Below, piece by piece: positions 936 to 35,258 of a stretch of DNA of 37,047 nucleotides (position 1 is the first letter of the stretch; each line of letters begins with the position of its first letter). The DNA lies in assembly GCA_037139415.1 (NCBI GenBank), contig JBAXGN010000063.1, positions 1 to 37,047 on the forward strand. The letters run 5' to 3'. The notes beneath the pieces were generated by a model. The model had not been told where the DNA came from. It searched no databases and saw only the letters and a list, made by a program, of their open reading frames with translations. The stretch comes from Verrucomicrobiota bacterium (GTDB taxonomy: Bacteria > Verrucomicrobiota > Verrucomicrobiia > Limisphaerales > Fontisphaeraceae). The position numbers and the translations under genes were made by a program.

Positions 936-1568
936 TCACGGTTTGTCGGCGGGGATTTTCAGCAGTTCCTCCGCCGTCCAAGGTCCGTCGCGAGTGGTTT
1001 CAGCCTGGCGGATTGCCGTCACCCGCGCTGGGGTTACCGCTGGGGCCGCGTTGCCCCAACTCTGGTTGCGCCGGAGATAGGTCAGCAGGGCGGCGATTTC
1101 TTCGTCCTTAAGAAAATCTTTCCACGGCACCATGATGTTATTGAACGTCGCGTCTTTGACCGTGATGGGACCATGCAATCCGTGCAAGACGATGCGTACC
1201 AACCGATCCGGTCCCGGCGCGTTGACCCAATCGGAACCGGCCAGCGGCGGGTACATCGGGGGTTGTCCCAAGCCGGTGTTCTGGTGGCACGGCGAGCAGG
1301 TTTTGACGTAGAGCAGGGCTCCGGTGGCAAGTGCCGGGTCCGCCGCCGGTTTGGGATTGGCCTGGCGCAGTTCTGCCAGCGTGCGGTACGGGGCATAGAC
1401 TTGGGGGCTGAATTCGCCGGCAGTTTGGTAAAGATACCAGGCTGCTGCCAGCAGGCCGGCACCGAGCAGGCCGAACAGCCAGATCGGAACGGTGGCAGCC
1501 CCGGGCGGTTCCGGGCGCGGTACGGCGGGCGGCGGTGGTGGAGTTGCGATGGGCGGTTTGTGCTTCAT
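936..1568 (-). CDS. Membrane-anchored monoheme cytochrome c (CcoP-like position)
   Basis: The product has 210 residues. After a proline-rich cytoplasmic N-terminus (PPPPPAVPRPEPPG) comes one transmembrane helix at about residues 28-48, then a periplasmic cytochrome c domain with a single heme site, CSPCH, near residue 92. A distal Met ligand candidate lies in FNNIMVPWKDFLKDEEI, followed by the usual LLTYLRRNQ helix. The expected role is electron transfer on the periplasmic side of the membrane. It is the last gene of the act operon and its ATG overlaps the stop of the CcoNO-like gene by 4 bases, so the two are translationally coupled. In a cbb3 oxidase this place would be taken by the diheme CcoP; here only one heme site is present. 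Whether it accepts electrons from the ACIII-like subunits is inference. Confidence 0.85.
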   Translation of the reverse strand: MKHKPPIATPPPPPAVPRPEPPGAATVPIWLFGLLGAGLLAAAWYLYQTAGEFSPQVYAPYRTLAELRQANPKPAADPALATGALLYVKTCSPCHQNTGLGQPPMYPPLAGSDWVNAPGPDRLVRIVLHGLHGPITVKDATFNNIMVPWKDFLKDEEIAALLTYLRRNQSWGNAAPAVTPARVTAIRQAETTRDGPWTAEELLKIPADKP

Positions 1569-3793
1569 CGGCTGGGTTGAAAGAGAATGGTGGTATGATC
1601 GTCACCGGCGGTTTTTGGGGTCAGCGGCGCGGCATAGACCGCCGCCTCCGCACGCAAGCTCAACAGGTACGCCGTGAGCGCAAGCGCTCCGGGTTTCGGA
1701 ACCATCTCCTTGCCTTGGCTTAGGCCGCTGCGGGTATCGGGTGGCAGCGCGCTAGCGGACGGCAAGCGGCCGGGCGTCAGTTCCCGCTCCTCGAATAGGA
1801 AACGATAGGACGGCATCAGGGAACCGGGGGAAACCTGGCGGGGATCATACAGATGGCGCAGATGCCATTGGGTGATTTCAGCTTCCGGATTTGGCGTTTG
1901 GCATTTCCACGGGGCGGCGAAACGTTCCGGGCGGCGGTCACCGATACTGGCCAGGTCGGGGCCTAAGCGAATGGTACCGGGAAAGACCAGACTATCGGCG
2001 GCGAAGTCTTGCGCCACCGTGCGCCGGGTTCCCCAGCCGCGCGCCAAATCCGTCGGGGTACCGGCGGGGCGCAGTTGTTGAGTGTGGCACTCGGCGCAGC
2101 CTAATGAACGGTACCATTCCCGGCCTTGTTCGGCCTGGCCCGGACGCGGGAGCGGATAGGTTGGTTCCAAGGCGGTTCGCGCGACCGGTTGCGGCCGCCC
2201 GAGTTGCCATTGCGGCACGAGGATGAGCCCGCCAAAGGACAGTGCGAGTGTGAGCACCGCCGCGAGGCCGGGCAGCCATGCGTGGTTTTGCCATGTGGCG
2301 CGGGGAACGGGTGCTTCCGCCACGGACATGTTCTCAAGAGATTCTGAATGGGTAGCTTCCCGTTCAGGTGTTGGACAGGGCTTCAGGCAGCGGCAGAGGA
2401 GCCAAGTGAAGTTGACGATGAAGGAGAATTGTGCGGTTGCCAAAATGATCCAGCCGGCCAGCACACCCCCGCCCGCGAGGCGCGTTGCGCGCACGACTTG
2501 AATGAACGGTTCTTCGGGTGACGCGGCCAGCACTTGTTGAATGCCGCCCAGCACCAATGCTCCCACCAGTACCGCCGTGCCGAGCAGGGTGCCATACACA
2601 TGCACTTTGGGCATGACATGGCACGGCCATTCGCGTCCCGTCAGGCGCGGGATAAGATAGGCCAGCGCGCCGGTGAGGACCGGCAGGATGAAGCCCGCCA
2701 GGAACAATTGATCGCGGGCGGTGGCAAACCAGGTGTACTCGGTCAGTGCCGCGACTTCGGGCACGTGCAGGATGCCACCCAAAATAAGGGCCACGCACCA
2801 GGAGAAAAAGCCAATGACCATGAGCAGCAGGGAGCGTTCTGAATTCAGTGCGTCCAGGTTGCCTGCCAAAGTTTTAAACAGGCACAGCGCCAGTGCCAGC
2901 ATGGCAGGCAACAGTAACCATTGGCATACGGCGCTGATGGCGGGCAGCCAGCGGGGCAGGGGCAGGCCGGGATGCAGGGCGCAACCCGCACCAAAGAGGG
3001 CAAACAACCAGAAGGCAAATTGCGCGAGCGACGGGTTGTGCAACGGACGGTTCGCCAGTTTTGGAACGAAAAACAGGAGCATGCCCAGGCCGGAGACGCC
3101 CAGCCACAAATGAACCAGGCCGGAACCAAGCCAAGCATGGATTACGGTTTGCATTACGCCCTGCACCGGCTGCCAGAGCAGCAGGGATTGGCTGACCCAC
3201 AGCAGACCGGCAAACCAGCATAACGCGGCCAGCAGATACCATTGTGCCGGGTGAAGCGTGGCGTTCCGGCGGTGCCGAACATTCGCCAACGCGGCGAGGG
3301 TAATGCATAGATGGCCCGCCAGCAACAGGCGCCCGGCCGGGCGGGGCAGGGCAAACCAGGCGAATCCGCTTTGGTCTCCGAATAGAATACCGCCCACGCC
3401 AAGCAGGACTGCCATGTTCCACAACAACCCGCCCGCGAAAAGCCAGCCAGTTCCGCGCCAAGGCATTTGCCCTAGCCGCGCCAGCATCCACAGCATCACC
3501 GCGTAAATGGCCTGCGAGGCAAACCCGTACACCAGCAAGCTCTGGCTGGCTGGCTGCAAACGGCCATACGAAAGGCTGGGCCAGGAGGAGAGGCAATCCG
3601 GACAGACCAATTTCAAGGCGCCCAAGGCGGCCATAACCATCGCTGCTCCGAGCCAACCCGCGGCGCTCCCGGCGAACCACAACGCCGGTCGTCGACAGGA
3701 GGCGTCCAGGACTTCCGGCGAAGCGACAGCGGCCTTGGAACCATCTGGAATGATGGTTGCGGCTGAGCACATGGTTGGGTGCGGATCAGGCAT
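1565..3793 (-). CDS. Fused CcoN-like / CcoO-like protein lacking heme-copper ligands
   Basis: The product has 742 residues. Residues about 40-470 form a 12-13 helix membrane domain that aligns with cbb3 oxidase subunit CcoN (YGRLQP at 76-81, WLGSG at 221-225, FFVPKLANRP at 241-250, AYLIPRLTGRE at 378-388). Residues about 505-742 form an anchored cytochrome c of CcoO type, with CAECH at 566-570 followed by QQLRP and a Met ligand candidate in SLMPSYRFL. By alignment from memory, the low-spin heme ligands are replaced by S83 and Q362, the high-spin heme ligand by R360, and the three copper-B histidines by S224, A272 and L273. An active oxygen site is therefore not possible in the known way. The gene starts 3 bases after actF and overlaps the next cytochrome gene by 4 bases. 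A structural or quinone-binding role in an ACIII-like complex is inference. Confidence 0.85.
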   Translation of the reverse strand: MPDPHPTMCSAATIIPDGSKAAVASPEVLDASCRRPALWFAGSAAGWLGAAMVMAALGALKLVCPDCLSSWPSLSYGRLQPASQSLLVYGFASQAIYAVMLWMLARLGQMPWRGTGWLFAGGLLWNMAVLLGVGGILFGDQSGFAWFALPRPAGRLLLAGHLCITLAALANVRHRRNATLHPAQWYLLAALCWFAGLLWVSQSLLLWQPVQGVMQTVIHAWLGSGLVHLWLGVSGLGMLLFFVPKLANRPLHNPSLAQFAFWLFALFGAGCALHPGLPLPRWLPAISAVCQWLLLPAMLALALCLFKTLAGNLDALNSERSLLLMVIGFFSWCVALILGGILHVPEVAALTEYTWFATARDQLFLAGFILPVLTGALAYLIPRLTGREWPCHVMPKVHVYGTLLGTAVLVGALVLGGIQQVLAASPEEPFIQVVRATRLAGGGVLAGWIILATAQFSFIVNFTWLLCRCLKPCPTPEREATHSESLENMSVAEAPVPRATWQNHAWLPGLAAVLTLALSFGGLILVPQWQLGRPQPVARTALEPTYPLPRPGQAEQGREWYRSLGCAECHTQQLRPAGTPTDLARGWGTRRTVAQDFAADSLVFPGTIRLGPDLASIGDRRPERFAAPWKCQTPNPEAEITQWHLRHLYDPRQVSPGSLMPSYRFLFEERELTPGRLPSASALPPDTRSGLSQGKEMVPKPGALALTAYLLSLRAEAAVYAAPLTPKTAGDDHTTILFQPSR

Positions 3794-3796
3794 GAG

Positions 3797-4999
3797 TCAG
3801 GATGATGATTCGCCGACTGCGGTCAGACGTGGGTCGCGTTGGGGGTAAGGCGCGTGGGCTTTAAACCAAACGATGAACCTGTGCGTCAGGGTGCCGCCAA
3901 TAAAACAGAATGCCGCCAAATCCAGCCAGTGGGGCGTCCAGCCATCGGGGTTGAGCACGGGCTTGATTTGATAGGTCATGTCCAGGTAATGCATAACCCA
4001 GGCCAGCCCGCAAACCGGGAGCATCACCTTCAGGGCGGTCTTGGCGCCGGAACGCAGCAACGCCAGAAACGGCACGAAGAAATGACCAATGAGCAGTGCT
4101 ACCGCCACTGCGAGCCAGGAACCCTGTTCGCGGAGGACGTACCAATGCGCCTCCTCGGGAATGGCGGCGTTCCACGTCAGGAAATACTGGGAATAAACAA
4201 TGTAACCATAGAACAGCGTGAATGTAAAAAAGAGCACGCTAGTGTCATGCAATGTGCCGGGGCGAATCACCGGGCGCAGCGGGCCAATGGCTTGCAGCAT
4301 CACCGCCAGCAAATAGGAGGTGGCGAGCGTCACCCACACGCTTCCGGCAAAGTAATAGACGCCGTACATCGTCGAATAAAAATGGTGATCCAGCGACATC
4401 ATCCAAAAAACGGCGGCAGCGGAAAGGCTCAGGGCGTACAACACGAGGCCACCGGCGGAGGTTCGGCGCATGGTTGTCACGAGGCCGTCGTTACCGGTCT
4501 GGTCCTGTTGCAGCGACCAACGCCGCAAGCTCCACGCCAGCACGGTCCACAGCCCGAATAGCAGGAGTGCGCCCCATCCGAAGACGGCGCGATTCAAGAG
4601 CAGGGCCTTGAAGGATTGCCGTGGATCAGACCTGAACTCGTCATAAACCCATGGATACACGGCGTTCTCGCGGCTGGCGAACCACACGTTCAGGAGAATT
4701 GGCAGGAACAGCAGGCCAAGCACGGGTGCCAGGCAGGCCAGATGTTCCCAAACCCGCCGCAATGGGACCATCCAACGGGCGTTAAAGAGATGTTGCAGCA
4801 TGACCAGGAACAACGCGCCCAGGGTGAGGCTCAGAAAAAACATGAAGGCAGTCAGGTAGGAATAGCCAAACTGCCGGGGTGTCAGCCACGCGCCCGCCAG
4901 GCACCCTATTCCGCCCACCACCATCAGGCAGAGCGGCAGCTTGCGCCACCGGGAGAGAGCCAGTGGCGGCGTGGGGGGATGGGTGGAGTGTTGGGACAT
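3797..4999 (-). CDS. actF: Alternative complex III membrane subunit ActF
   Basis: The product has 400 residues and about ten transmembrane helices. In the family, ActF is a homologue of ActC (NrfD/PsrC fold) that sits in the inner membrane and helps form the quinol side of alternative complex III, which oxidises quinol and reduces a cytochrome c or an oxidase. Family-like stretches seen are SLTLGALFLVMLQHL, MMSLDHHFYSTMYGVYYFAGS, YSQYFLTWNAAIPEE and LRSGAKTALKVMLPVCG. It lies 4 bases after actE and 3 bases before the CcoNO-like gene, in one operon. The short N-terminal cytoplasmic tail MSQHSTHPPTPPLALSRW supports the chosen start. I am confident of the family; the partners of this particular complex are uncertain because actA and actB are absent from the cluster. 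Confidence 0.88.
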   Translation of the reverse strand: MSQHSTHPPTPPLALSRWRKLPLCLMVVGGIGCLAGAWLTPRQFGYSYLTAFMFFLSLTLGALFLVMLQHLFNARWMVPLRRVWEHLACLAPVLGLLFLPILLNVWFASRENAVYPWVYDEFRSDPRQSFKALLLNRAVFGWGALLLFGLWTVLAWSLRRWSLQQDQTGNDGLVTTMRRTSAGGLVLYALSLSAAAVFWMMSLDHHFYSTMYGVYYFAGSVWVTLATSYLLAVMLQAIGPLRPVIRPGTLHDTSVLFFTFTLFYGYIVYSQYFLTWNAAIPEEAHWYVLREQGSWLAVAVALLIGHFFVPFLALLRSGAKTALKVMLPVCGLAWVMHYLDMTYQIKPVLNPDGWTPHWLDLAAFCFIGGTLTHRFIVWFKAHAPYPQRDPRLTAVGESSS

Positions 5000-5003
5000 T
5001 AAG

Positions 5004-5573
5004 TTAATATTTTCCCGCCTGTAACGTCCGCAAATAGGCGATGATTGCCCAGCGATCCAACGGTTCGATTTCCCCCGCGTAGCCGTTCATCAGGTTTTTA
5101 CCGCGCGTGATGGTGTTGAAAATTTCGCCATCGGTCATGGTTACCAAGCGTTTCTCCAGCAGGTTGGCTACGATGGGCATCGCTCCGAGTTTGCGCGAGA
5201 TGCTGTTGCCGTCACCCAGCGGCCCGTGGCAATTGGCGCAAACGATGTTGAACCGTTCCCGTCCGCGCTCCCGCACGGCGGCGGTGACGGGGATCGGATT
5301 CACGGTGACGAAGTTGGTGGTGCCCGTCACGCGCCCGGTATGGAGGGGCAAATCCTGGAACGGTTCGCCTTGCGCGATCGTACCCTCCGGCTGCGGCTGC
5401 GAAGCCCGGCCATCCGGGAAAAAGCCGTTCTGGAATTGGGGTCGCAGCTTGGGCTGCCGCACCATGTCGGGAAACAGTTCAAGGGGCGGTTTGCGCGAAA
5501 AGCCGCCACGCAGCCCGGCAAACGTGGCCACCACCAGCGTCGCAACCAAAAGGGTGAGGAGGACGTATCGCAT
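5004..5573 (-). CDS. actE: Alternative complex III monoheme cytochrome c subunit ActE
   Basis: The product has 189 residues with an N-terminal signal or anchor helix (LLTLLVATLVVATFAG). The mature part begins with the ActE-like region PPLELFPDMVRQPKLRPQ, which resembles the conserved start of ActE proteins. It carries one heme c site, CANCHGPLGDG, near residue 115, with a Met ligand candidate in GKNLMNGYAGEIEPLDRW and the closing helix AIIAYLRTLQ. It should sit on the periplasmic face and carry electrons out of the quinol-oxidising core. It follows actD after a single base and precedes actF by 4 bases. With no pentaheme ActA nearby, this monoheme subunit and the two downstream c-type domains are the only visible electron carriers of the operon. 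Confidence 0.9.
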   Translation of the reverse strand: MRYVLLTLLVATLVVATFAGLRGGFSRKPPLELFPDMVRQPKLRPQFQNGFFPDGRASQPQPEGTIAQGEPFQDLPLHTGRVTGTTNFVTVNPIPVTAAVRERGRERFNIVCANCHGPLGDGNSISRKLGAMPIVANLLEKRLVTMTDGEIFNTITRGKNLMNGYAGEIEPLDRWAIIAYLRTLQAGKY

Positions 5574-5574
5574 G

Positions 5575-6114
5575 TCAGGCCTCCACCCGTTCGATGTGCG
5601 CGCCGCCGGCTTGTTCCAGCAACGCGCGAAGTTCCGCTTCCTCGTATTTAGGATCAGATTCCTCGACCACCAGGAAAAATTTATCGAGCGTGGCCGCTTT
5701 AAAACGAGGATGCTTGAGCAGGGGATGATGCCAGCGTGGGAGGCGGCATCGCCACAACCAGCCGAGGGTGACGCCGAACGCCGCGCACAGCAGCGTCAGT
5801 TCAAAGCTGGGCGGCAAGGCGAAATAAGGGCTGAACAACGGTTTGCCGCCCACCCGCAACGGGTATTGGTGCGCATTCATGTACCAGATCATCAGTTGAC
5901 CAAGCCCAAAGCCGATCACTCCGCCCCAGAATGCCCACCAGGTAATTCGCGCCGTCCTCAAGCCCATGGCGGCGTCCATGCCCTGCACCGGGAACGGCGT
6001 GTGAACATCCCAGCGCCGATAGCCGGCCTCGCGCATCCGTTCCGCTGCGTGAAGGATGGCGGCTGGTGTGTCAAATTCCGCGAGCAGTCCAAACGGTCTG
6101 GGATTGGTGCTCAT
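5575..6114 (-). CDS. actD: Alternative complex III membrane subunit ActD (DUF3341)
   Basis: The product has 179 residues and belongs to the DUF3341 family. The soluble N-terminal part starts with FGLLAEFDTPAAILHAAERM and continues with GYRRWDVHTPFPVQGMDAAM, the typical ActD signature. Two transmembrane helices follow, at about residues 58-80 and 95-120, with a conserved loop YPLRVGGKPLFS between them. A C-terminal tail ends near FLVVEESDPKYEEAE. ActD anchors and stabilises the complex by contacting ActC and ActF and carries no cofactor. Its ATG overlaps the stop of actC by 4 bases (6111-6114), so the two are translationally coupled. Confidence 0.92.
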   Translation of the reverse strand: MSTNPRPFGLLAEFDTPAAILHAAERMREAGYRRWDVHTPFPVQGMDAAMGLRTARITWWAFWGGVIGFGLGQLMIWYMNAHQYPLRVGGKPLFSPYFALPPSFELTLLCAAFGVTLGWLWRCRLPRWHHPLLKHPRFKAATLDKFFLVVEESDPKYEEAELRALLEQAGGAHIERVEA

Positions 6115-7538
6115 GCGTCGTGGTCTCCTTTTCCGTCTGGAAATGGGTTCGCCTGCGGGGTGGTGTTCTTCACGTCGTACATGGCGATCATTGGCAGAAA
6201 CCGCAGGAATAGGAGGAACAACGTCAGGAACAGCCCGATGGTGCCCACGAATGTAAAAACCTCGACCCAGGTCGGCGTAAAATAACCCCAGTTCGCGGGC
6301 AGAAAGTCACGGGCCAGCGAACCGGCAATGATGACCAGCCGTTCGAGCCACATGCCCACATTGATCAATAGCGCCAGCACAAATATCACCCAGACACGCG
6401 CGCGCACCGGCTTGAACCAGAACAATTGCGGCAACCCCACATTGCAAATCAGCATGATCCAAAATGCCCAGGCGTAAGGGCCGGACATGCGTTGCCGGAA
6501 ACAATCCACCTCGTACGGGTTGCCGCCGTACCAAGTAAGGGTGAATTCCATCACATAGGCATACGCCACCAGCAGGCCAGTGCCCAACGTCACCCGGCAC
6601 ATCAAATCCAGATGGCGCTGGGTGATAATGTCCTCCAATTTGCACCACGCGCGCAAGGGGATCAGCAGCGTCAACACCATGGCAAACCCGGAGAAAATGG
6701 CCCCGGCGACAAAGTACGGGGGGAAAAGCGTGGAATGCCAGCCGGGCAACTGGGTGACGGCGAAGTCAAACGACACAATGGAATGTACGGAAATCACCAG
6801 TGGGGTCGAAAGCCCGGCCAGCAACAGGTAGGCTTTTTCATAACTTTGCCAGTGACGGTTCGAGCCGGTCCAGCCCAAGGCCAGCAGTCCGTAGATGAGT
6901 TTGCGGGGCAGGGTGGTGGCCCGGTCGCGCAACGTGGCGAGATCGGGGATCATCCCGGTGTACCAGAACAGGAGCGAGACGATGAAGTAGGTGGTAACCG
7001 CGAACGCATCCCAGACCAGTGGAGATCGGAACTGCGGCCAGATGCTGTTGGCGTTGGGGACCGGCAACAGCCACCACCCAAGCCAGGCGCGTCCTAGGTG
7101 GATCAGCGGATAGATGGCGGCGCAGATCACCGCAAACAGGGTCATGGCCTCGGCAGCGCGGTTGACCGATGCGCGCCATTTCTGCCGCAGTAGGAAGAGA
7201 ATGGCCGAAATCAAGGTGCCCGCGTGCCCAATGCCAATCCAAAACACGAAGTTGGTGATGTCCCAAGCCCAGCCTACCGGGTGATTCAGGCCCCACACGC
7301 CCACGCCGGTGGAGATCAAATAGACGATCATTACGAAGCAAAGCAGGGTTAGCGGGAAACTGATGCCAAAGGCCAGCCACCACCACCCGGGCGTTTTATT
7401 TTCGACCAACCCGGCGATGTGATCGGTGATCCAACCCCAGGAGCGCTGGTTCAATACCAGCGGCGTGCCTGTGCGTTCCCGGAGCGGGGACTCACGGCAC
7501 ACCACAGCGGCGGTTGGATTGACCACGGCCTCAGGCAT
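6111..7538 (-). CDS. actC: Alternative complex III quinol-binding membrane subunit ActC (NrfD-like)
   Basis: The product has 475 residues with about ten transmembrane helices of the NrfD/PsrC type. Family signatures seen are WWWLAFGISFPLTLLCF, the helix containing NFVFWIGIGHAGTLISAIL, SVHSIVSFDFAVTQLPGWH and NVGMWLERLVII. ActC binds quinol and is thought to help couple its oxidation to proton movement. It is the first gene of the operon: the next gene upstream, at 7764, is divergent, and the 225 bases between contain no actA (pentaheme cytochrome) or actB (iron-sulfur/molybdopterin-like) sequence. In the classic arrangement actA and actB come directly before actC. They are either elsewhere in the genome or this is a reduced complex. 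Confidence 0.92.
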   Translation of the reverse strand: MPEAVVNPTAAVVCRESPLRERTGTPLVLNQRSWGWITDHIAGLVENKTPGWWWLAFGISFPLTLLCFVMIVYLISTGVGVWGLNHPVGWAWDITNFVFWIGIGHAGTLISAILFLLRQKWRASVNRAAEAMTLFAVICAAIYPLIHLGRAWLGWWLLPVPNANSIWPQFRSPLVWDAFAVTTYFIVSLLFWYTGMIPDLATLRDRATTLPRKLIYGLLALGWTGSNRHWQSYEKAYLLLAGLSTPLVISVHSIVSFDFAVTQLPGWHSTLFPPYFVAGAIFSGFAMVLTLLIPLRAWCKLEDIITQRHLDLMCRVTLGTGLLVAYAYVMEFTLTWYGGNPYEVDCFRQRMSGPYAWAFWIMLICNVGLPQLFWFKPVRARVWVIFVLALLINVGMWLERLVIIAGSLARDFLPANWGYFTPTWVEVFTFVGTIGLFLTLFLLFLRFLPMIAMYDVKNTTPQANPFPDGKGDHDA

Positions 7539-25886: not shown

Positions 25887-28800
25887 ATGCGTCACTCTTT
25901 AGTAACCTTGCCTGCAAATATGCCAGGTACGACGTCCAATTCAGGCATCCGTGATAATCATCGCCGGGGAATCGTCGCGGATTTCCTTCGCGCGAAGATT
26001 CGCCAGGACTCATACCTGTCCATCGTTTCCGCTTATTTTACCATTTACGCCTTTGACGCCCTCAAAGATCACCTTAACCAAATCTCCCATCTCGATTTTC
26101 TTTTCGGCGAACCGCGTTTTGTCAGCTCCCTGGACCCTGATCGCACGGAGTCAAAGACCTTCGTGCTGGACTCCTCCGGCCTGAAACTGGCCAATTGCCT
26201 CGCCCAAAAACGCGTTGCTCGCGAATGTGCCGATTGGATTCGCCAGAAGGTGGACATCAAATCCGTCCGGCACACCAGCCTGCTTCATGGCAAGATGTAC
26301 CATATTGCCAATAATGGCGTTCACGAAGCCATCCTCGGCAGTTCCAATTTTACCGTGCGCGGTTTGGGCTTGGGGCAAGCGGACAACAATATCGAACTGA
26401 ACCTCGAAGTGGACAGCAACCGCGACCGGCAGGACCTCAAAACCTGGTTTGATGAACTTTGGAATGACGCGGCATTGGTCGAAGATGTTAAAAAAGACGT
26501 TCTCCTGTACCTGGAACAGCTCTATGTCAACCAGGCCCCGGAGTTCGTCTATTACAAAACCCTGTTCCATATTTTTGAGAATTTCCTGGCCGATCAGGAA
26601 AAGGGCGGCCTCCTCGATCAGGATCTCAAGATTGTTGACACTGGCATCTGGAAAGCCCTCTTTGAGTTCCAGCGCGATGGCGTCAAGGGCGCCATCAATA
26701 AAATTCTCAAACATAATGGCTGCATCCTGGCCGACAGTGTCGGCTTGGGAAAAACCTTTGAGGCTCTGGCCGTCATCAAATACTTCGAACTGCGCAACGA
26801 GCGCGTTCTGGTCCTGTGCCCCAAGAAACTCCGTGAAAACTGGACGGTGTATCGGCAGAACGACGCCCTCAATCCCTTCATTGACGACCGCTTCCGGTTC
26901 GACGTTCTCTCGCATACCGACCTCAGCCGCGAAAGCGGTACCTCTGGCGACATTAACCTGGCAACCTTCAATTGGGGTAATTTCGATTTGGTGGTCATTG
27001 ATGAATCGCACAACTTCCGCAACAACACCCCGGGCCGGCGCGACGAGGATGGCAACCTGATCCGCAAAAGCCGTTACCAGCGGTTGATGGAGGATATTGT
27101 CCAGAGCGGCATCAAAACCAAGGTCCTGCTATTGTCCGCCACGCCGGTCAACAACGATTTGCGCGACCTGCGCAACCAGATTTATTTCCTTACCGAAAAC
27201 CGCGACGATGCCTTTGCGGCATCCATCGGCATTGAGAGCCTGAAGGACACCCTGACCGCCGCCCAGAAAACCTTTTCCCTGTGGTCCAAGAAAAAGTCTG
27301 GCGAGCGCCAGACCAAGGATCTGCTCGAAAAACTCAGTTCCGCCTTTTTCAAGCTGCTGGACGAACTGACCATCGCCCGTTCGCGCAAGCACATCCAGCG
27401 CTACTATAAGGCCAGTCTTGCCCAGTTGGGCGGGTTCCCAGTGCGCCGCAAACCGGAGTCCATTTTTCCCGACATTGATTTACAGCACCGCTTCCTGTCT
27501 TATGACCGGCTTAATAACGAGATCGAGGGCTACAAACTCTCCCTGTTCGCCCCGTCTCGTTACCTGAAAAACGAGTGCGAGTCGCTGCCGTGCTACCAGA
27601 CGCATGCCAACGATCCATTCAAGCAATCCGACCGTGAAAAATTCCTGGTCGGCATGATGAAGGTCAATTTTCTCAAGCGCCTCGAAAGTTCCGTGCATTC
27701 CTTTGAGATCACCATGGAACGCACCATCAAAAAGATTGAGAGTTTGGAGAGCAAAATCCACAATTTTGAAAACGATCCCACCCAGGACCCGGAATCCAAC
27801 GCCCTTGAATTTGACCTGGGCATCCCGGAGGAGGATGAGGATTTGGAGGCCGCCCAGTTGGTCGGCGGCAAATTCAAGTACCATCTCAAGCACCTTGAAT
27901 TGAAAAAATGGTTGAAAGACCTCCAGCGCGATAAAGAGCAACTCAGCTTGCTGCATACTTCTGCCCAGGCCGTCACGGCGGACCGGGACGCCAAGCTCAA
28001 GGAATTGAAGCGGCTGATTGAACGCAAGGTGAAGAACCCCACGACCAACAAACTCGGCGAGCTTAACCAAAAGGTTCTGGTCTTCACCGCCTTTGCCGAC
28101 ACCGCCACGTACCTGTTCGATTCCTTGCAGTCCTGGGCACAGCACCAGCTCCATATTCATATCGCGCTCGTTTCCGGCAGCGGCAATAACCAGACCACGT
28201 TTGGCAAAACCGAGTTCAACCAGGTCCTGACCAATTTTTCCCCCCGTTCCAAAAACCGTGCCAAAATAAAGTCCATGCCCCAGACGGGGGAAATTGATCT
28301 GCTCATTGCCACGGATTGCATCTCCGAGGGCCAAAATCTTCAGGACTGCGATTACCTGGTCAATTACGATATCCATTGGAACCCTGTGCGTATCATTCAG
28401 CGCTTTGGCCGCATAGATCGTATCGGCAGCGTCAATCACGCCGTTCAGTTGGTGAATTTCTGGCCCACCCAGGACCTCGACAAATACGTCAACCTGAAAA
28501 ACCGCGTTGAGGCCCGCATGGCCCTGGTGGATATCGCCGCTACTTTCGAGGACAACATTCTTAATACCGAGGAAATCGAAGAACTCGTTCACGAAGACCT
28601 CCGTTATCGCGACAAACAGCTCTTGCGCCTGCGCGAGGAGGTCCTCGATTTGGAAGACTTTAGCGAAAGCATCGCTCTGAACGAATTCACCCTCGACGAT
28701 TTCCGGATTGAACTAAGCAAATACATTGAAGCCAACCGCCAGCTTCTTCAGGATGCCCCCATGGGCCTGTATGCGGTGGTGCCCCCGCACCCCGAACACC

Positions 28801-29240
28801 AGATCATCGCCCCCGGCGTCATCTATTGCCTGCGGCAGAAAGCATCCCATCAACCATCAACCATTCGCCATCAACAATCCACAGTAAATCCCCTCCAACC
28901 CTACTATCTGGTTTACGTCCGGGACGATGGCACCGTCCGGTTTGGCTTTGCCCAACCCAAGCAGGTCCTTGAGATTTTGCAATTGCTGTGCCGGGATAAA
29001 ACGGTCCCCTACGCCGACCTGTGCAACCTGTTTGACCAGCAAACCCACAACGGCGCGGATATGAGCGCCTACGACCGCTTGTTGCAGCAGGCCGTCGCAT
29101 CCATCGTTGCCACGTTCCGCCGCCGCGTCGCGGCCGGGTTGCAAGGGAGCCGCAATTTCATCATCCCCGATCAAAAAGACCAGGCCAATGACACCGCCGA
29201 TTTTGAACTGGTCACCTGGCTGGTGATCAAGAACCCATGA
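25887..29240 (+). CDS. PLD nuclease-SNF2 helicase fusion (restriction-type)
   Basis: The product has 1117 residues. Residues about 25-190 form a phospholipase-D-like nuclease domain with one HxK motif (LLHGKMYHI near 134-142, then AILGSSNFTVRGL). The SNF2-type helicase follows: Walker A ADSVGLGKTFEAL near 282-294, DESHNF near 372, LLLSATPVNNDLRDL near 413, and QRFGRIDRIGS near 838. The enzyme should use ATP to move along DNA and cut it through the PLD domain. It starts an operon (stop overlaps the next ATG by 4 bases) that ends with an adenine methyltransferase, so the whole fits a restriction or DISARM-like system. An unusual stretch near residues 986-1003 (SHQPSTIRHQQSTVN) looks like inserted repeat DNA. 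Confidence 0.88.
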   Translation: MRHSLVTLPANMPGTTSNSGIRDNHRRGIVADFLRAKIRQDSYLSIVSAYFTIYAFDALKDHLNQISHLDFLFGEPRFVSSLDPDRTESKTFVLDSSGLKLANCLAQKRVARECADWIRQKVDIKSVRHTSLLHGKMYHIANNGVHEAILGSSNFTVRGLGLGQADNNIELNLEVDSNRDRQDLKTWFDELWNDAALVEDVKKDVLLYLEQLYVNQAPEFVYYKTLFHIFENFLADQEKGGLLDQDLKIVDTGIWKALFEFQRDGVKGAINKILKHNGCILADSVGLGKTFEALAVIKYFELRNERVLVLCPKKLRENWTVYRQNDALNPFIDDRFRFDVLSHTDLSRESGTSGDINLATFNWGNFDLVVIDESHNFRNNTPGRRDEDGNLIRKSRYQRLMEDIVQSGIKTKVLLLSATPVNNDLRDLRNQIYFLTENRDDAFAASIGIESLKDTLTAAQKTFSLWSKKKSGERQTKDLLEKLSSAFFKLLDELTIARSRKHIQRYYKASLAQLGGFPVRRKPESIFPDIDLQHRFLSYDRLNNEIEGYKLSLFAPSRYLKNECESLPCYQTHANDPFKQSDREKFLVGMMKVNFLKRLESSVHSFEITMERTIKKIESLESKIHNFENDPTQDPESNALEFDLGIPEEDEDLEAAQLVGGKFKYHLKHLELKKWLKDLQRDKEQLSLLHTSAQAVTADRDAKLKELKRLIERKVKNPTTNKLGELNQKVLVFTAFADTATYLFDSLQSWAQHQLHIHIALVSGSGNNQTTFGKTEFNQVLTNFSPRSKNRAKIKSMPQTGEIDLLIATDCISEGQNLQDCDYLVNYDIHWNPVRIIQRFGRIDRIGSVNHAVQLVNFWPTQDLDKYVNLKNRVEARMALVDIAATFEDNILNTEEIEELVHEDLRYRDKQLLRLREEVLDLEDFSESIALNEFTLDDFRIELSKYIEANRQLLQDAPMGLYAVVPPHPEHQIIAPGVIYCLRQKASHQPSTIRHQQSTVNPLQPYYLVYVRDDGTVRFGFAQPKQVLEILQLLCRDKTVPYADLCNLFDQQTHNGADMSAYDRLLQQAVASIVATFRRRVAAGLQGSRNFIIPDQKDQANDTADFELVTWLVIKNP
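28843..28893 (+). repeat. In-frame low-complexity insert in the helicase
   Basis: The bases CATCAACCATCAACCATTCG then CCATCAACAATCCACAG repeat a CATCAACC-like unit. It encodes SHQPSTIRHQQSTVN between CLRQK and LQPYYLVYVRDDG, which look like neighbouring family positions. Confidence 0.55.
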
Positions 29241-30409
29241 AACGTAAATCCAAAGTCGTCGCCAAAAGCCGCACCACCGGTGAAACAATTGGTGGTGCGG
29301 ACAAAACTCGCGGCACTGCTGAGGGAATCCGCCGCATTCAGAGTACTCGCACCACCGGTGCGACTACTCCGCGGTCTCCGCATGAATCGGCCTTCCATGA
29401 AGTTATAGTCTTGATCCAAAAGGCGCGCCAGCGCGCTTTCCTTGCGGTTAACACCGAGTTGATTGACCTTTACTGGCGCGTGGGTGAGTACATCAGCCGC
29501 AAATTGGAGGCGGCAGCCTGGGGGGATGGCGTTGTGGACCAGCTTGCCCGCTTCATCACCAGCGAGGAGCCAGACCTCAAAGGCTTCACCCGGAGAAACC
29601 TATTCCGGATGAGGCAGTTCCACGATACCTATCGGCACGAAAAGAAACTCTCACCACTGGTGCGACAATTGCCATGGACCCATAACCTCCTGATTCTGAG
29701 CCGCTGCAAACGCCCCGAAGAGCGCGAGTTCTACCTCCGCCTTTGTCTCCGGGAACACTGGGGTAAGCGCGAACTGGAACGTCAGCTTGCGGGCGCCCTC
29801 TTCGAACGCACCATCCTTGCTCCGCCAAAAGTGTCACCACTGGTGACACAATTGCATCCCCAGGCGGGAAATATTTTCAAAGACACCTACCTGCTCGATT
29901 TTCTCGACCTGCCGGAAGTCCATTCCGAGGCCGACTTGCAAAAGGCCCTCGTCGCCAATCTGAAACATTTCCTCCTGGAATTGGGTCGCGATTTCTCCTT
30001 CGTCGGCGAACAATACCTCTTGCAGGTCGGCGGCAAGGATTTCCGCCTCGACCTCCTTTTCTACCACCGCGCCCTCCAATGCCTCGTGGCCTTCGATCTC
30101 AAAATTGACGAGTTCCAGCCCGAGTACCTTGGCAAAATGGAGTTCTATTTAGAGGCGCTCGACCGCGACATCAAAAAGCCGCACGAGCAGCCATCCATCG
30201 GCATCCTGCTTTGCGCCACCAAAGACAATGAGGTGGTGGAATACGCCTTGAGTCGTTCTGCATCTCCGGCGCTGATTGCGGAATACCAGACCGCGCTCCC
30301 TGATAAGCGCCTCCTCAGGCGTAAACTTCACGAGTTCTACCAATTGGCAGCCCCGGCGCTGCCTCAGGGCAGGCTCCCCAGTCCCGGAAAAAAACCTCGC
30401 CACCCATGA
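29237..30409 (+). CDS. DUF1016/YhcG-type PDDEXK nuclease-domain protein
   Basis: The product has 390 residues. After a variable first 50 residues rich in Thr/Arg, the DUF1016 N-terminal domain begins (VIVLIQKARQRAFLAVNTELIDLYWRVGEYIS), then HNLLILSRCKRPEEREFYL and WGKRELERQLAGALFERTI. The C-terminal nuclease domain has DLPEVHSEADLQKALVANLK, GKDFRLDLLFYHRALQCLVAFDLKID (Asp and the xxK of PDDEXK), and PSIGILLCATKDNEVVEYAL. It is probably a DNA nuclease that accompanies restriction genes. It is coupled on both sides by ATGA overlaps. Four 15-bp dyads of the form CACCACYGGTG lie inside the coding sequence. Confidence 0.88.
   Translation: MKRKSKVVAKSRTTGETIGGADKTRGTAEGIRRIQSTRTTGATTPRSPHESAFHEVIVLIQKARQRAFLAVNTELIDLYWRVGEYISRKLEAAAWGDGVVDQLARFITSEEPDLKGFTRRNLFRMRQFHDTYRHEKKLSPLVRQLPWTHNLLILSRCKRPEEREFYLRLCLREHWGKRELERQLAGALFERTILAPPKVSPLVTQLHPQAGNIFKDTYLLDFLDLPEVHSEADLQKALVANLKHFLLELGRDFSFVGEQYLLQVGGKDFRLDLLFYHRALQCLVAFDLKIDEFQPEYLGKMEFYLEALDRDIKKPHEQPSIGILLCATKDNEVVEYALSRSASPALIAEYQTALPDKRLLRRKLHEFYQLAAPALPQGRLPSPGKKPRHP
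29269..29300. repeat. Inverted repeat in nuclease gene
   Basis: The perfect 10-bp arms CCGCACCACC (29269-29278) and GGTGGTGCGG (29291-29300) enclose 12 bases. It is one of four CACCACYGGTG-type dyads in this gene, with others at 29348-29362, 29651-29665 and 29831-29849. Confidence 0.7.
29831..29849. repeat. Perfect dyad in nuclease gene
   Basis: GTGTCACCACTGGTGACAC is a 9-bp-arm dyad with a single central base. It is followed by AATTG, as is the related site at 29651-29665 (TCACCACTGGTGCGA then CAATTG). Confidence 0.7.
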
Positions 30410-30630
30410 ACTTTTCCCTCTCACTCGACCACCTGCGCCGCCGTGCCCCAGAACTGGGCAAAGGGTGGGTACAATTTGAACATACCCTTGCCGCAACCCC
30501 GGAAGAGGCTTCCGCTTTGAAGTCACAACTTGTGACCTCAAAACCTGGGCGGGTGGCAGTCGTTACTCCCTTGATAAAATCTTTCCCCATTCGCGTCTAT
30601 TCGCGTTCATTCGCGGTTAACCTTTTATGA
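30406..30630 (+). CDS. Small coupled ORF of unknown function
   Basis: The product would have 74 residues (MNFSLSLDHLRRRAPELGKG...). The start overlaps the nuclease stop by 4 bases and its own stop overlaps the ORF6N start by 4 bases, which is strong evidence of translation as a bridge. On the other hand, the last 15 residues come from a three-unit repeat (30589-30618), and ASALKSQLVTSKPG resembles a piece of an ORF6N domain, so it may be a decayed relative that keeps the operon coupled. No domain is recognised. Confidence 0.45.
   Translation: MNFSLSLDHLRRRAPELGKGWVQFEHTLAATPEEASALKSQLVTSKPGRVAVVTPLIKSFPIRVYSRSFAVNLL
30522..30536. repeat. 15-bp dyad GTCACAACTTGTGAC
   Basis: The 7-bp arms with one central base are perfect. 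It has the same length and layout as the dyads at 30830-30844 and 30866-30880 in the ORF6N gene. Confidence 0.7.
30589..30620 (+). repeat. Three-unit 10-bp repeat before the ORF6N start
   Basis: The units ATTCGCGTCT, ATTCGCGTTC and ATTCGCGGTT are followed by AA, ending 6 bases before the ATG at 30627. This type of triplet repeat ending in GGTTAA is familiar from gaps between genes in several phyla. Confidence 0.75.
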
Positions 30631-31181
30631 ACCCCCTCCCAGCCAAACCAGCCATCATCGCCGACCTGATCCGCTCCATTCGCGGGCAACGGGTTATTCT
30701 GGATTCCGACCTCGCCCGCCTCTATGGCGTCCCCACCAAGCGCCTGAACGAGCAGTTTCGCCGTAACCAGGAGCGATTCCCGGAGGATTTTGCTTTTCAA
30801 ATAACCGCTGAAGAAGCTGACCTCTTGAGGTCGCAATTTGCGACCTCAAGTTCTCCAGCAGACCGGTCGCAGATTGCGACCGCATTACGCAAGCATGGGG
30901 GGCGTCGCTACCTCCCCTACGCTTTCACCGAACACGGCGCGCTCATGGCGGCCAACATTCTCAACAGCCCCGAGGCCGTAGCCATGAGCATCCATGTCAT
31001 CCGCGCCTTTGTTCAATTCCGTCACGTTCTGGCCACCCATGCCGACCTCGCCCGCAAGTTGGCTTCCTTGGAAAATAAATACGACGCCCAGTTTAAAGTG
31101 GTATTTGATGCCATTCGCGATCTGATGGCGCCACCCAAAAAAATCAAACGCGAAATCGGCTTCCACGCCATCAAAAAATAA
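30627..31181 (+). CDS. ORF6N domain protein
   Basis: The product has 184 residues. The ORF6N domain is clear: IRGQRVILDSDLARLYGVPTKRLNEQ, FRRNQERFPEDFAFQITAEE, then RYLPYAFTEHGALMAANILN, and ends with AMSIHVIRAFVQFRH and a short coiled coil (LARKLASLENKYDAQFK). The family is related to phage antirepressor/KilA-N proteins and binds DNA; its job in bacterial defence regions is not known. Between the two halves of the domain lies an expanded segment, LRSQFATSSSPADRSQIATALRKHG, whose DNA is two palindromes (30824-30850 and 30864-30882). It is coupled to the small ORF upstream and followed 44 bases later by the methyltransferase. Confidence 0.88.
   Translation: MNPLPAKPAIIADLIRSIRGQRVILDSDLARLYGVPTKRLNEQFRRNQERFPEDFAFQITAEEADLLRSQFATSSSPADRSQIATALRKHGGRRYLPYAFTEHGALMAANILNSPEAVAMSIHVIRAFVQFRHVLATHADLARKLASLENKYDAQFKVVFDAIRDLMAPPKKIKREIGFHAIKK
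30824..30850. repeat. 27-bp perfect palindrome in the ORF6N gene
   Basis: The 13-bp arms CTTGAGGTCGCAA and TTGCGACCTCAAG flank one T. The core GTCGCAATTTGCGAC is 15 bp. A second dyad, CGGTCGCAGATTGCGACCG, follows at 30864-30882. Confidence 0.85.
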
Positions 31182-31182
31182 T

Positions 31183-31214
31183 CTTTGTGCCTTTTATGCC
31201 CTTTTGTGATTAAA
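31183..31214 (+). repeat. Degenerate three-unit repeat before the methyltransferase
   Basis: CTTTGTGCC, TTTTATGCC and CTTTTGTGATTAAAT form three similar units ending 11 bases before the ATG. This has the look of the CTTTGTG-type repeats common between genes in many bacteria. Confidence 0.6.
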
Positions 31215-31225
31215 TCACTTTCGAC

Positions 31226-34200
31226 ATGAGCGATCTCCCAACCAAACAATCCATCCAGTCCGCCCTTGCCGGGTTCGCCACCGAGCCCCTCGCCTCGGCT
31301 GCCACGGCCCTGCTTGAGTCCCTGGGTTACCGCAGCGACAAGCGCCTCGCCCTCAAACCCAACTCCGCCGAGGCCTTCACCGCTCAATTTGCCAAGGATA
31401 GGCCGCTCAACCCCGCAACCGCCTTGCTCGCGGACTGGCAGTCCGTGGATTTCCTATTCCAGCTAACGGACGAAGAAGTCCGCGCCGCCGCCGGCGGCAA
31501 CCAGCAATTTCTGTTCGACAGCAAGGGCCAATACAACGGCGCGGCGATGGAGTCTTACCTCTTCTTTGCCATCGCCCTCGAAAAGCCCCACTACACGCGC
31601 ACCGAACTTTCCGGCATCACTCGCGCCGTGAACCACCTGTTCCCCATGCCGGTCATGGTGCTGTTCCGCCATGGCGACACGCTCACGCTCGCCGTCATCA
31701 ATCGCCGATTGCACAAGCTCGACAGTGCCAAGGACGTGCTGGAAAAGGTCACGCTCATCAAGGACATCCGGTTCACGTCACCGCACCGGGCGCACATCGA
31801 AATTCTCGCCGACCTCTCGTTCGACTCGCTGCGTGAACGGCACGACTTTTCCAATTTCGTCACCCTCCACGCCGCGTGGCAGAAGTCACTCGACAGTTCC
31901 GAACTCAACAAGCGCTTCTTTCTCGAAGTCGCCAACTGGTATTTCTGGGCGCTCAGCCATGTCGAGTTTCCCAAGGACGCGCCCAAGCAGGATGGCAAGG
32001 ATCATATCAGCGTCATCCGCTTAATCACCCGGCTCATGTTCGTTTGGTTCATCAAGGAGAAAGGCCTGGTTCCCGACCTCCTTTTCGATGAGCGCAAATT
32101 GCCGCAAATCCTCAGCGGCTTTTCCCCCACCAAGACCAGCGACAAGGAATCCGTTTTTTACCGCGCCATCCTGCAAAACCTTTTCTTTGCCACGCTCAAC
32201 ACCGAGATGGACAAGCGCGGCTGGACCAAGGAGGAACAGAATTTCATGGCGCACAGCCTGTATCGCTTCCGGGAATTGTTTCAAAAGCCCGCCGATGCCC
32301 TCGACCTGTTCAAAAACATCCCGTTCCTCAACGGCGGTTTGTTCGAGTGCCTTGATAAGGACCTCGGTGAAAATGCCAAACCGCGTTACGTCCGCATTGA
32401 CGGCTTCTCCCGCCGCGACGATAGCCAGGCCGTCGCGCCGGATTTTCTTTTCTTCGGCCCGGAACGGGATGTGGATTTGAGCGAAGACTACGGCGACAAA
32501 AAATTCAAGACGGTCAAAGTCCGCGGGCTCATCCACACGTTAAACCATTACAAGTTCACCGTGGCGGAAAACACCCCCATTGAGGAGGAAATCGCCCTCG
32601 ACCCGGAATTGTCCGGCAAAGTGTTCGAAAACTTGCTCGCCGCCTATAACCCGGAAACCGGTGCCACCGCCCGCAAACAAACCGGCTCCTTTTACACCCC
32701 GCGCGAAATCGTCAACTACATGGTGGACGAAGCCCTCATTGCCTACCTCAAAACCAAACTCGAAAATGCCCTGGCTTCCGCACACCCCAGCGGAGTTTTT
32801 CAACCAAGCCCAGCGGCACAAGTCGGAGTTGGCCAGTTGAACACTCCTGCCTCAAACCCCAACGGGGTTTCGCAAGCTAGCCCAGGGTTGCGGAGGGATG
32901 CGGGGCGCTACCCTGGGGAAACAGCCCCCAATATATCCCCCAACCCTGAAGGGGTTGCAGACCAACCAACCCGCCGCCAGCTTGGCCAGTCCGGCTCGGA
33001 CCAACTCTCAACCGAATCCCGCCTCCGCCACCTGTTCGCCTACAACCACGACCCACACCAGTTCACCCCCCAGGAAGTGGTCGCACTCATCGCCGCCATT
33101 GACAGCCTTAAATCCCTCGACCCGGCGGTTGGTTCGGGCGCGTTCCCGATGGGCATCTTGCACAAGCTCGTTTTCATCCTCGGCAAGCTCGACCCCGACA
33201 ACACCAAGTGGCGCGAACGCCAGCGCCAGCGTGCGATTCAACAGACTGCCGAGGCGTTCAAGATCGGCGACAAGGAGGAGCGCCAGCGTCGGTTGGATGA
33301 CATCAACGGCGTGTTCGAGCAAAACGCCTCCGATTATGGCCGCAAGCTCTACCTGATTGAGAATTGCATTTACGGTGTGGACATTCAACCAATAGCCGTC
33401 CAGATCGCCAAAATGCGTTTTTTCATCTCGTTAATCGTGGACCAGAAGATTGACGACTCGCAGCCCAATCGCGGCGTGCGGCCACTGCCAAACCTGGAAA
33501 CCAAGTTCGTCGCGGCCAACACGCTTATTGGCGTGAACCGGCCCGGCCAGCAATTCCTCCGCAACCGCGACATGGACGCCAAGGAAGCCGAACTCCGCCG
33601 GGTGCGCGAGCGCCATTTCCTCGCCACCACTCCGAAACAGAAAGCCAAATGTCGCGAGCAGGACGAGAAACTCCGCACCGCAATTGCCGAGCTGCTTAAA
33701 GGCGACGGCTGGGACAAAGACACCGCCACGAATCTCGCCTCGTGGAATCCTTACGACCAAAACGCTTGGGCTAGGTTCTTCGATGCCGAATGGATGTTCG
33801 GCATTACTGATGGTTTCGATATTGTTATAGGAAATCCTCCTTATGTCCGAATCCAGAACATCGCCGAGAGCGAAGCCGTGCTTCTAAAGCGCTACTATTC
33901 TTCAGCAATCGGAAAGTTTGATATTTATGTGTTGTTCGTTGAAAATGCTTTTCGACTGATCTCCGCGAAAGGGATCATTTGCCTAATCCATCCACATCGC
34001 TTCCTAACCGCAGATTACGGGCGCGGGATCAAAGCGTTCTTGGACAAAGTCCGTGGCCTTCAGTGGGCAATTCTTTTCGGTGTTGATCAAGTTTTCGATG
34101 CGGCCACGACTTACACAGGACTTTTTGCCTACTCAAATGGCAACGTGAGTTTTGGATTCAAACACGCGAACACCACGGAGTTTTATTTAGCGCCGTTCAC

Positions 34201-35131
34201 ACAACGCCCATATTCGGCAAGCGGAAGCCACTGGAATCTTTCGACAGAAAATGCCAGTTCTTCAGATTTGATTGAAAAACTGCGAGGCCAGCCGCGCAAA
34301 TTATCCGACATCTGCATAGGTGTATTTCAAGGAATTGTAACCGTAGGCGACGATATTTTTGTATTCAAAGGCAAGCGGTCTGGAAAAACGTTCGTCGGCT
34401 GGAGCGAGGCTGCGGGTAAGGAGGTCGAATTGGAAGCGGACATTGTGAAACCTTTACTCAAAGGTGAAAACATTCAGCGCTACGAGCCTCTGTCGAGTGA
34501 TATTTGGATTTTCTATCCGCATTACCAAGATGAGTTTGGCAAGACTCGGGCATATTCAGAAAAGGAATTGCGTGCCCGTTTCCCGAAAGCGTTTGATTAT
34601 ATCAAGCCATTCAAAAGCCATCTCACAACGAAGAAAATCCAATACAAGACCAACGCTGACCTTTGGTTCTCGCTTCATCGTTCACGGGAAATGTCGCTCT
34701 TTGAGCAGCCGAAAATCCTAACCCCGCAACTTCAAAATCATCCCAGCTTCACTTTCGATGAGCATCGGTGGTATCCTGATGCTGGCGGTTATTCGCTCAT
34801 CTTGAAAAACGCCACCCAAGATGATTACATGTTTCTATTGGGCGTCATGAATAGTTCGTTGCTCTGGTATTTCATACGAAGCACCAGCAATCCCTACAAC
34901 AACAGTTACTACTATTTCAAAACTAAATACCTCGAACCCTTTTCTTTTCCTGTGGTCGATAAAGACAAGCAGGCACAAATCGCCAAATTGGCCGCAAAGA
35001 TTCACGAATCCAAAATTATACCTAAGCGTGCCGACACGGCCGCCTTGGAGCTTGAGATAAACCAACGTGTTTACGCCCTCTACGGCCTGACGCCTGAGGA
35101 AATCAAAATCGTGGAGGAGACATCAAAATGA
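31226..35131 (+). CDS. Eco57I/PglX-like adenine-N6 DNA methyltransferase (type IIG-like)
   Basis: The product has 1301 residues. An N-terminal region (1-440) has no clear nuclease motif but contains AMESYLFFAIALEK and RLITRLMFVWFIKEKGL, as in large methylases of this class. The methyltransferase begins near ARKQTGSFYTPREIVNYMVD (about 485). The SAM-binding motif is DPAVGSGAFPMGILHKL near 632, and the catalytic NPPY lies in GFDIVIGNPPYVRIQ near 870. From there to the end lies the target-recognition part, closing with a TaqI-like TSNPYNNSYYYFKTKYLEPF segment. It should methylate adenine to mark self DNA. Residues about 518-595 are an in-frame insert of repeat DNA. The last 430 codons are more AT-rich than the first part. 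Confidence 0.9.
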   Translation: MSDLPTKQSIQSALAGFATEPLASAATALLESLGYRSDKRLALKPNSAEAFTAQFAKDRPLNPATALLADWQSVDFLFQLTDEEVRAAAGGNQQFLFDSKGQYNGAAMESYLFFAIALEKPHYTRTELSGITRAVNHLFPMPVMVLFRHGDTLTLAVINRRLHKLDSAKDVLEKVTLIKDIRFTSPHRAHIEILADLSFDSLRERHDFSNFVTLHAAWQKSLDSSELNKRFFLEVANWYFWALSHVEFPKDAPKQDGKDHISVIRLITRLMFVWFIKEKGLVPDLLFDERKLPQILSGFSPTKTSDKESVFYRAILQNLFFATLNTEMDKRGWTKEEQNFMAHSLYRFRELFQKPADALDLFKNIPFLNGGLFECLDKDLGENAKPRYVRIDGFSRRDDSQAVAPDFLFFGPERDVDLSEDYGDKKFKTVKVRGLIHTLNHYKFTVAENTPIEEEIALDPELSGKVFENLLAAYNPETGATARKQTGSFYTPREIVNYMVDEALIAYLKTKLENALASAHPSGVFQPSPAAQVGVGQLNTPASNPNGVSQASPGLRRDAGRYPGETAPNISPNPEGVADQPTRRQLGQSGSDQLSTESRLRHLFAYNHDPHQFTPQEVVALIAAIDSLKSLDPAVGSGAFPMGILHKLVFILGKLDPDNTKWRERQRQRAIQQTAEAFKIGDKEERQRRLDDINGVFEQNASDYGRKLYLIENCIYGVDIQPIAVQIAKMRFFISLIVDQKIDDSQPNRGVRPLPNLETKFVAANTLIGVNRPGQQFLRNRDMDAKEAELRRVRERHFLATTPKQKAKCREQDEKLRTAIAELLKGDGWDKDTATNLASWNPYDQNAWARFFDAEWMFGITDGFDIVIGNPPYVRIQNIAESEAVLLKRYYSSAIGKFDIYVLFVENAFRLISAKGIICLIHPHRFLTADYGRGIKAFLDKVRGLQWAILFGVDQVFDAATTYTGLFAYSNGNVSFGFKHANTTEFYLAPFTQRPYSASGSHWNLSTENASSSDLIEKLRGQPRKLSDICIGVFQGIVTVGDDIFVFKGKRSGKTFVGWSEAAGKEVELEADIVKPLLKGENIQRYEPLSSDIWIFYPHYQDEFGKTRAYSEKELRARFPKAFDYIKPFKSHLTTKKIQYKTNADLWFSLHRSREMSLFEQPKILTPQLQNHPSFTFDEHRWYPDAGGYSLILKNATQDDYMFLLGVMNSSLLWYFIRSTSNPYNNSYYYFKTKYLEPFSFPVVDKDKQAQIAKLAAKIHESKIIPKRADTAALELEINQRVYALYGLTPEEIKIVEETSK
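32780..33010 (+). repeat. In-frame palindrome-rich insert in the methyltransferase
   Basis: The segment encodes low-complexity HPSGVFQPSP / NPNGVSQASP / NPEGVADQPT-type peptides. Its DNA holds three hairpins: AAACCCC-AAC-GGGGTTT (32854-32870), CCCAGGGT-N21-ACCCTGGG (32881-32917) and CAACCC-TGAAG-GGGTTG (32941-32957). These match the style of the intergenic palindromes typical of Verrucomicrobia. Confidence 0.75.
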
Positions 35132-35258
35132 AGCCCGAATCGGAATCATTTCAAACGAGGTGTCGGTATCCTGGTTCCCACGAAAACCCAACAAAGAATC
35201 GGATTTATGGAATTTGTCATTAAACGCTTGGAATTGCTTCAAATGCCCCTGTGATCTT

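Follow-up and report, generated by a model that had tools for sequence, protein, structure and literature searches.

The reverse strand of the window (the whole 37,047-nucleotide stretch of verrucomicrobial DNA analysed here) carries at positions 1565-3793 an intact frame of 742 amino acids that combines a CcoN-like fold with a CcoO part bearing a heme c site. Five of the six histidine ligands of CcoN are gone from this protein and no complete metal site is left. In Verrucomicrobiota, a large bacterial group of soils and waters, the homologues assembled here show that CcoN, the oxygen-reducing subunit I of cbb3 oxidase, has lost its cofactor ligands at least twice independently. On balance we favour, with moderate confidence, the reading that a cbb3 oxidase linked to alternative complex III (ACIII) turned more than once into a membrane platform without cofactors that holds the heme wire of CcoO and a cytochrome c on ACIII. 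The parts of the fusion gene are as follows.

2354-3793, reverse strand: CcoN-like membrane half, residues 1-480, ligand-free (Pfam COX1, phmmer, AlphaFold2 model and fold comparison)
1565-2308, reverse strand: CcoO-like half, its heme c site intact (Pfam FixO, 2e-16)
2084-2098, reverse strand: CAECH, residues 566-570, the heme c motif (read from the sequence)
1814-1816, reverse strand: Met660, of axial type (97-99% conserved in ligand-free homologues)

The fusion of a CcoN-like subunit to CcoO, which an earlier note had read from the letters of this DNA, was borne out by profile and structure comparisons. Residues 36-435 match Pfam COX1 (5e-25) and residues 514-670 match Pfam FixO/CcoO, and the solved CcoN proteins 9g6b and 3mk7 were the closest solved proteins in phmmer searches, with an aligned span of residues 47-422. 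In an AlphaFold2 model of the fusion protein, built from 47 alignment rows, the CcoN half had pLDDT values mostly above 90; the CcoO half was poorly placed (residues 480-630, mostly below 60). Foldseek returned 9g6b_A and 3mk7_A as the top matches of this model (TM-score 0.89 on the target), and VIA-align matched 441-443 residues at 1.7 Å with Z-scores of 51.2 against 8smr_E and 50.9 against 3mk7_D. On the strength of the predicted model, we regard it as certain that the membrane half has the CcoN fold.

The heme c site of CcoO is intact, again as the note had described it, and its ligands C566, C569, H570 and M660 are each among the residues conserved at 97-99% in ligand-free homologues. Several other ligand-free loci (L008, L005, L013 and others) have CcoO proteins in which an insertion of about 60 residues or more separates the C-terminal part from the heme c motif. 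Among the loci examined, CcoN and CcoO were fused in the window only; because its nearest relatives have separate ccoN and ccoO genes, the fusion is probably independent. The window protein scored 70.5 bits against TIGR00780, the curated ccoN equivalog with a cut-off of 583, but the verrucomicrobial copies that have all six histidines (hereafter six-His copies) themselves reach only about 244, so this cut-off cannot separate the two ligand states.

The positions of the former ligands in the CcoN half were assigned as follows.

3545-3547, reverse strand: S83, at the position of low-spin heme b His1 (alignments with PDB chains and six-His relatives)
3122-3124, reverse strand: S224, at the position of CuB His1 (alignments with PDB chains and six-His relatives)
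2990-2992, reverse strand: G268, at the position of the cross-linked active-site Tyr (family column comparison)
2969-2974, reverse strand: H274-P275; H274 occupies the CuB His2 column, and that of His3 is lost (alignment with six-His relatives)
2708-2716, reverse strand: R360-D361-Q362, with R at the heme b3 His position and Q at the low-spin heme b His2 position (alignments with PDB chains and six-His relatives)

The earlier claim that all heme and copper ligands had been lost thus stands for five of the six and fails for one column. Replacement of ligand histidines by S83, S224, R360 and Q362 was recovered alike in the alignments with PDB chains and with six-His relatives, but A272 and L273, which had been proposed as the equivalents of copper-B ligands, do not hold that place. 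Compared with close six-His relatives of the same phylum, the CuB loop of the window has a two-residue deletion that puts H274 in the CuB-His2 column, so A272 and L273 are not the ligand equivalents. H274 is an isolated retained histidine and the only one in a ligand column; 11 of 56 ligand-free homologues have His in the same column. Histidines at the heme or copper positions, which the earlier note had named as a refutation, were thus limited to this single residue. The column of the cross-linked Tyr holds Y in all of 25 six-His loci, and in the ligand-free homologues it holds mostly G or A, with G in 44 of 56. Misalignment that hides histidines was considered and rejected, because phmmer alignment to PDB chains, the family multiple alignment, the alignment with six-His relatives, profile-profile alignment and fold comparison all agree, except in the CuB2/3 region, where H274 had to be re-assigned.

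Loss of the ligands is accompanied by loss of a gene. Directly upstream of ccoN in six-His loci lies a small FixS/CcoS-like gene (Pfam 3.5e-6 for one copy and 0.0013 for a more diverged copy), which was present in 40 of the 40 six-His loci long enough to show it, two of the 42 being left out of this count since they start at ccoN on a contig edge. It was found in none of 67 ligand-free loci and in none of 21 further ones, and the window gave no match. CcoS is needed for insertion of b-type heme into cbb3 oxidase (PMC10588857), and Rhodobacter capsulatus lacking CcoS makes a cbb3 oxidase that is fully assembled but inactive (PMC5742617). If CcoN has ceased to carry hemes b, joint loss of the heme ligands and the heme-insertion factor would be expected; the assembled, inactive enzyme of the R. 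capsulatus mutant indicates that such an assembly can be stable.

We collected homologues, as the earlier note had advised, and found the ligand loss to be common to the clade. A protein search detected homologues in 52 of 58 genomes of the order. A ligand-free copy was present in 50 of the 58 (one of them, G019, counted from a fragment) and always lay at the corresponding site, preceded by actCDEF and followed by a cytochrome c gene; two genomes, G036 and G037, had a six-His copy only. Genome G040 has both a six-His copy with ccoS (contig C548) and a ligand-free copy with actCDEF (contig C174), so the two can coexist. A scan of GTDB genomes yielded 80 named loci, all from Verrucomicrobiota except one assigned to "Omnitrophota" and two labelled only "bacterium". 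Across the verrucomicrobial loci the ligand states were all-or-none in character: 42 rows had all six histidines, 68 had zero to two and none had three to five, and there were 21 further ligand-free genomes beyond the 68 rows.

With the ligand columns left out of the CcoN tree, the ligand-free copies appeared in three places, namely a large clade A of Limisphaerales and Pedosphaerales that includes the window copy, a pair B from Puniceicoccaceae nested among six-His copies, and a group C from Opitutaceae. A single origin of ligand loss for the whole set was rejected (p-AU 2e-5), as was the joining of clade A with pair B (p ~1e-53). The joining of clade A with group C was not rejected (AU p 0.06), so only a count of at least two independent losses is firm on these trees, and three or more appear likely. 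The tree of ActCDEF from the same loci requires six to seven changes of ligand state. The two trees disagree within Limisphaerales, where that of ActCDEF nests six-His copies among ligand-free ones, hinting at parallel losses or at a swapping of oxidase modules among ACIII operons; given this disagreement, such exchange may have occurred. The window copy itself sits on a long branch, is fused and is without the small subunit described below, and thus may be more derived than its relatives.

The genes around the fusion gene connect it to ACIII.

936-1568, reverse strand: membrane-anchored mono-heme cytochrome c, overlapping the fusion gene by 4 bases (Pfam Cytochrom_C, 1e-11)
3797-4999, reverse strand: ActF of ACIII (position and homologues)
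5004-5573, reverse strand: ActE, mono-heme cytochrome c of ACIII (Pfam and synteny)
5575-6114, reverse strand: ActD of ACIII (Pfam ActD, 9e-60)
6111-7538, reverse strand: ActC (NrfD-like) of ACIII (Pfam NrfD, 2e-22)

The frame indeed lies intact in the middle of a tight operon, with gaps of -4, 1, 4, 3 and -4 bases from actC through the cytochrome c gene, and the link to ACIII that had been suggested for it agrees with actCDEF directly preceding it. The genes actA and actB of the same genome are on another contig, C31 (ActB at 60% identity, ActA pentaheme), so that actA through actF are all present. The locus order in both ligand states is actC-actD-actE-actF-(small one-helix gene)-(ccoS)-ccoN-ccoO-cytochrome c, and the cytochrome c after ccoO has a single CxxCH in 60 of 61 ligand-free loci. 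The small gene between actF and ccoN encodes a single-helix protein of about 125 amino acids that is conserved in ligand-free and six-His loci (L003-L110, L170-L190; for example L035:9585-9971), with the motif VRLPIxxAMExxVxxWKNPxAARSNLxAR and no confident Pfam match. It is present in the other ligand-free loci whose sequence covers that stretch and was not found in the window or its genome, an absence peculiar to the window among the loci examined.

A ligand-free subunit that is kept intact, under selection and beside ACIII genes is probably a structural part of ACIII. In Verrucomicrobiota, an oxygen-reducing cbb3-type module of CcoN, CcoO and cytochrome c has a fixed genetic place after the ACIII genes, and in several lineages, the large clade of the window among them, CcoN lost the ligands of both hemes b and of CuB, the cross-linked Tyr and ccoS. 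Without these, CcoN should no longer be able to reduce oxygen. It retained its fold of 12 helices and, on the periplasmic side, its heme c-bearing partner CcoO. In the scenario that we favour, CcoN would now be a cofactor-free membrane subunit of ACIII. ActABC would oxidise quinol, electrons would pass from ActA/ActE to the heme c of CcoO and the adjacent cytochrome c, and would finally reach a distinct terminal oxidase or another acceptor. The CcoN fold would serve as the anchor and docking platform that positions CcoO and the cytochrome c.

Candidate acceptors of this kind are common in these genomes. A high-scoring canonical heme-copper oxidase is encoded elsewhere in 43 of the 50 ligand-free genomes, mostly an A-family enzyme of about 615 amino acids and often also a canonical CcoNO, and most of the canonical CcoNO copies examined have the HH and HxH motifs. 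Against the platform reading, no heme-copper oxidase that could take the electrons was seen in the window's own assembly (378 contigs, 98% estimated completeness), in which a second COX1, a COX2 and a canonical CcoN were all looked for without success; a heme could also, in principle, be bound through non-conserved residues. CydAB is encoded in this genome and cytochrome bd is the only likely oxidase found there. Among other electron sinks, NosZ and cytochrome c peroxidase were absent from the genome and one weak multiheme nitrite-reductase-like frame was present. The genome's ACIII genes and its cytochrome bd are spread over contigs C63 (the window), C31 and C56, with ACIII split over two of the contigs.

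The chief rivals of the platform reading are slow decay, taken up below, and a role in coupling or docking. In the latter, the cofactor-free CcoN might serve ACIII by conducting ions or by changing conformation, or might provide the surface through which a separate aa3 oxidase docks into an ACIII supercomplex. ACIII already has a cofactor-less relative of a redox subunit in ActF, a homologue of ActC that lacks the quinol site and for which proton half-channels have been proposed (PMC5928083). CcoN has kept its fold and several internal residues, and an A-family oxidase is usual in ligand-free genomes. Nevertheless, the ligand-free set has no new conserved charged or polar motif of its own and no such oxidase was seen in the window's genome, and we regard this alternative as unlikely. 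That CcoN, converted several times independently and with loss of its heme-insertion factor, is a permanent ACIII subunit that aids energy coupling, by ion conduction or conformational change and beyond merely anchoring CcoO, seems to us quite unlikely.

The claim in the earlier note that the gene is kept by selection agrees with the clade-wide conservation and with the substitution rates. The median dN/dS of ligand-free copies was 0.19 over 13 close pairs, compared with 0.10 for six-His copies, and values ranged from 0.09 to 0.33 with one outlier of 0.66, a pair that has a frame break resembling an assembly error. The ratio of CcoN to ActC rates was 3.0 in ligand-free versus 1.6 in six-His copies. 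Ligand-free CcoN is, by these measures of its sequence, relaxed yet still constrained. It is decidedly improbable that ccoN, after another oxidase took over, is a relic in slow decay, a fading pseudogene kept only by its operon position and by CcoO. Such decay would fit the roughly twofold faster evolution of ligand-free CcoN relative to ActC, the free variation of the ligand columns and the different oxidase in 43 of 50 genomes. However, nearly all frames are intact in about 90 loci from about 50 families, dN/dS stays within the above range in all but one pair, the predicted fold is intact, structural residues are invariant (W47, G90, W185, G212, W221, P280, W282 and T308), and ligand loss had at least two origins, each of which was kept. 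A sporadic or decayed pseudogene, the outcome against which the earlier note had asked for homologues to be checked, is rejected on the conservation across the clade, the median dN/dS and the intact frames.

Conserved columns in the ligand-free set are mostly structural and common to the six-His set, and the column comparison found no alternative conserved heme site. It is highly improbable that CcoN has remained a redox protein by binding a heme or metal with a different set of residues. Some members do have His or polar residues in a few ligand columns (H274 of the window among them), and His is frequent in the columns that correspond to residues 63 and 398 of the window protein. However, the columns with frequent His are also His in six-His copies, column 63 is Val in the window, no newly conserved His, Cys, Met or Lys column was found in the ligand-free set, and ccoS is absent.

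Relative to known systems, the window protein resembles the C-family CcoN of cbb3 oxidases (3mk7, 8smr and 9g6b) in its 12-helix fold, sequence homology and adjacent CcoO and cytochrome c, but at about 20% identity it lacks five of the six ligands, the cross-linked Tyr and ccoS. Its closest six-His homologues are verrucomicrobial modules such as those of Geminisphaera colitermitum TAV2 (L084) and Cerasicoccus maritimus (L108), which have the same order of actCDEF, small gene, ccoN, ccoO and cytochrome c but retain all six histidines, the Tyr and ccoS. The bifunctional CcoNO fusion (PRK14485, NF011053) likewise has CcoN and CcoO in one chain; it is, however, a separate canonical family, against which the window protein scores 125.7 with a cut-off of 1080. 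Cofactor-free homologues of redox subunits have precedents, one of them being CydB of bd oxidases, which has another fold and goes back to an ancient duplication, whereas ligand-free CcoN arose repeatedly at an orthologous locus. ActF is another precedent, inside ACIII itself, of a membrane subunit that is homologous to a redox subunit but carries no cofactor (PMC5928083), and it differs from ligand-free CcoN in the same respects: another fold and an ancient duplication as against repeated origin at an orthologous locus.

Oxidase genes often follow ACIII clusters, and in the known ACIII-(c)aa3 supercomplexes electrons pass directly from one complex to the other (PMC5928083, PMC8552683); in a verrucomicrobial methanotroph, genes for aa3 and cbb3 oxidases adjoin those for ACIII (PMC11102522). 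In Rhodothermus marinus and Flavobacterium johnsoniae, which have such supercomplexes, ACIII genes are likewise followed by oxidase genes (PMC5928083, PMC8552683), but there the linked oxidase is active and of the A-family, whereas the linked CcoN of the window is ligand-free.

The earlier note knew of no description of such a protein, and none of a ligand-free CcoN was found in open-access full text, subscription papers and preprints being outside the scope of the search. Fold and complex are both known; their combination and state here have, as far as checked, not been described before. Heme-copper oxidases define aerobic respiration and subunit I serves as its marker gene. Since a whole order carries, within its principal operon for quinol oxidation, a subunit I without heme- and copper-binding residues, inference from COX1/CcoN homology alone would overstate the capacity for oxygen respiration; the ligand-free CcoN is the only COX1 match in the window's genome. 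These loci offer a natural experiment on roles of CcoN besides catalysis and a case in which an enzyme was repeatedly turned into what is probably a structural component. They also open the make-up of ACIII supercomplexes in Verrucomicrobiota to direct tests.

Elsewhere in the window, positions 25887-36065 on the forward strand form a likely defence island: a PLD/SNF2 helicase (HKD and Snf2, 5e-137), a YhcG-type PDDEXK nuclease, an ORF6N protein and a type IIG restriction-methylase.
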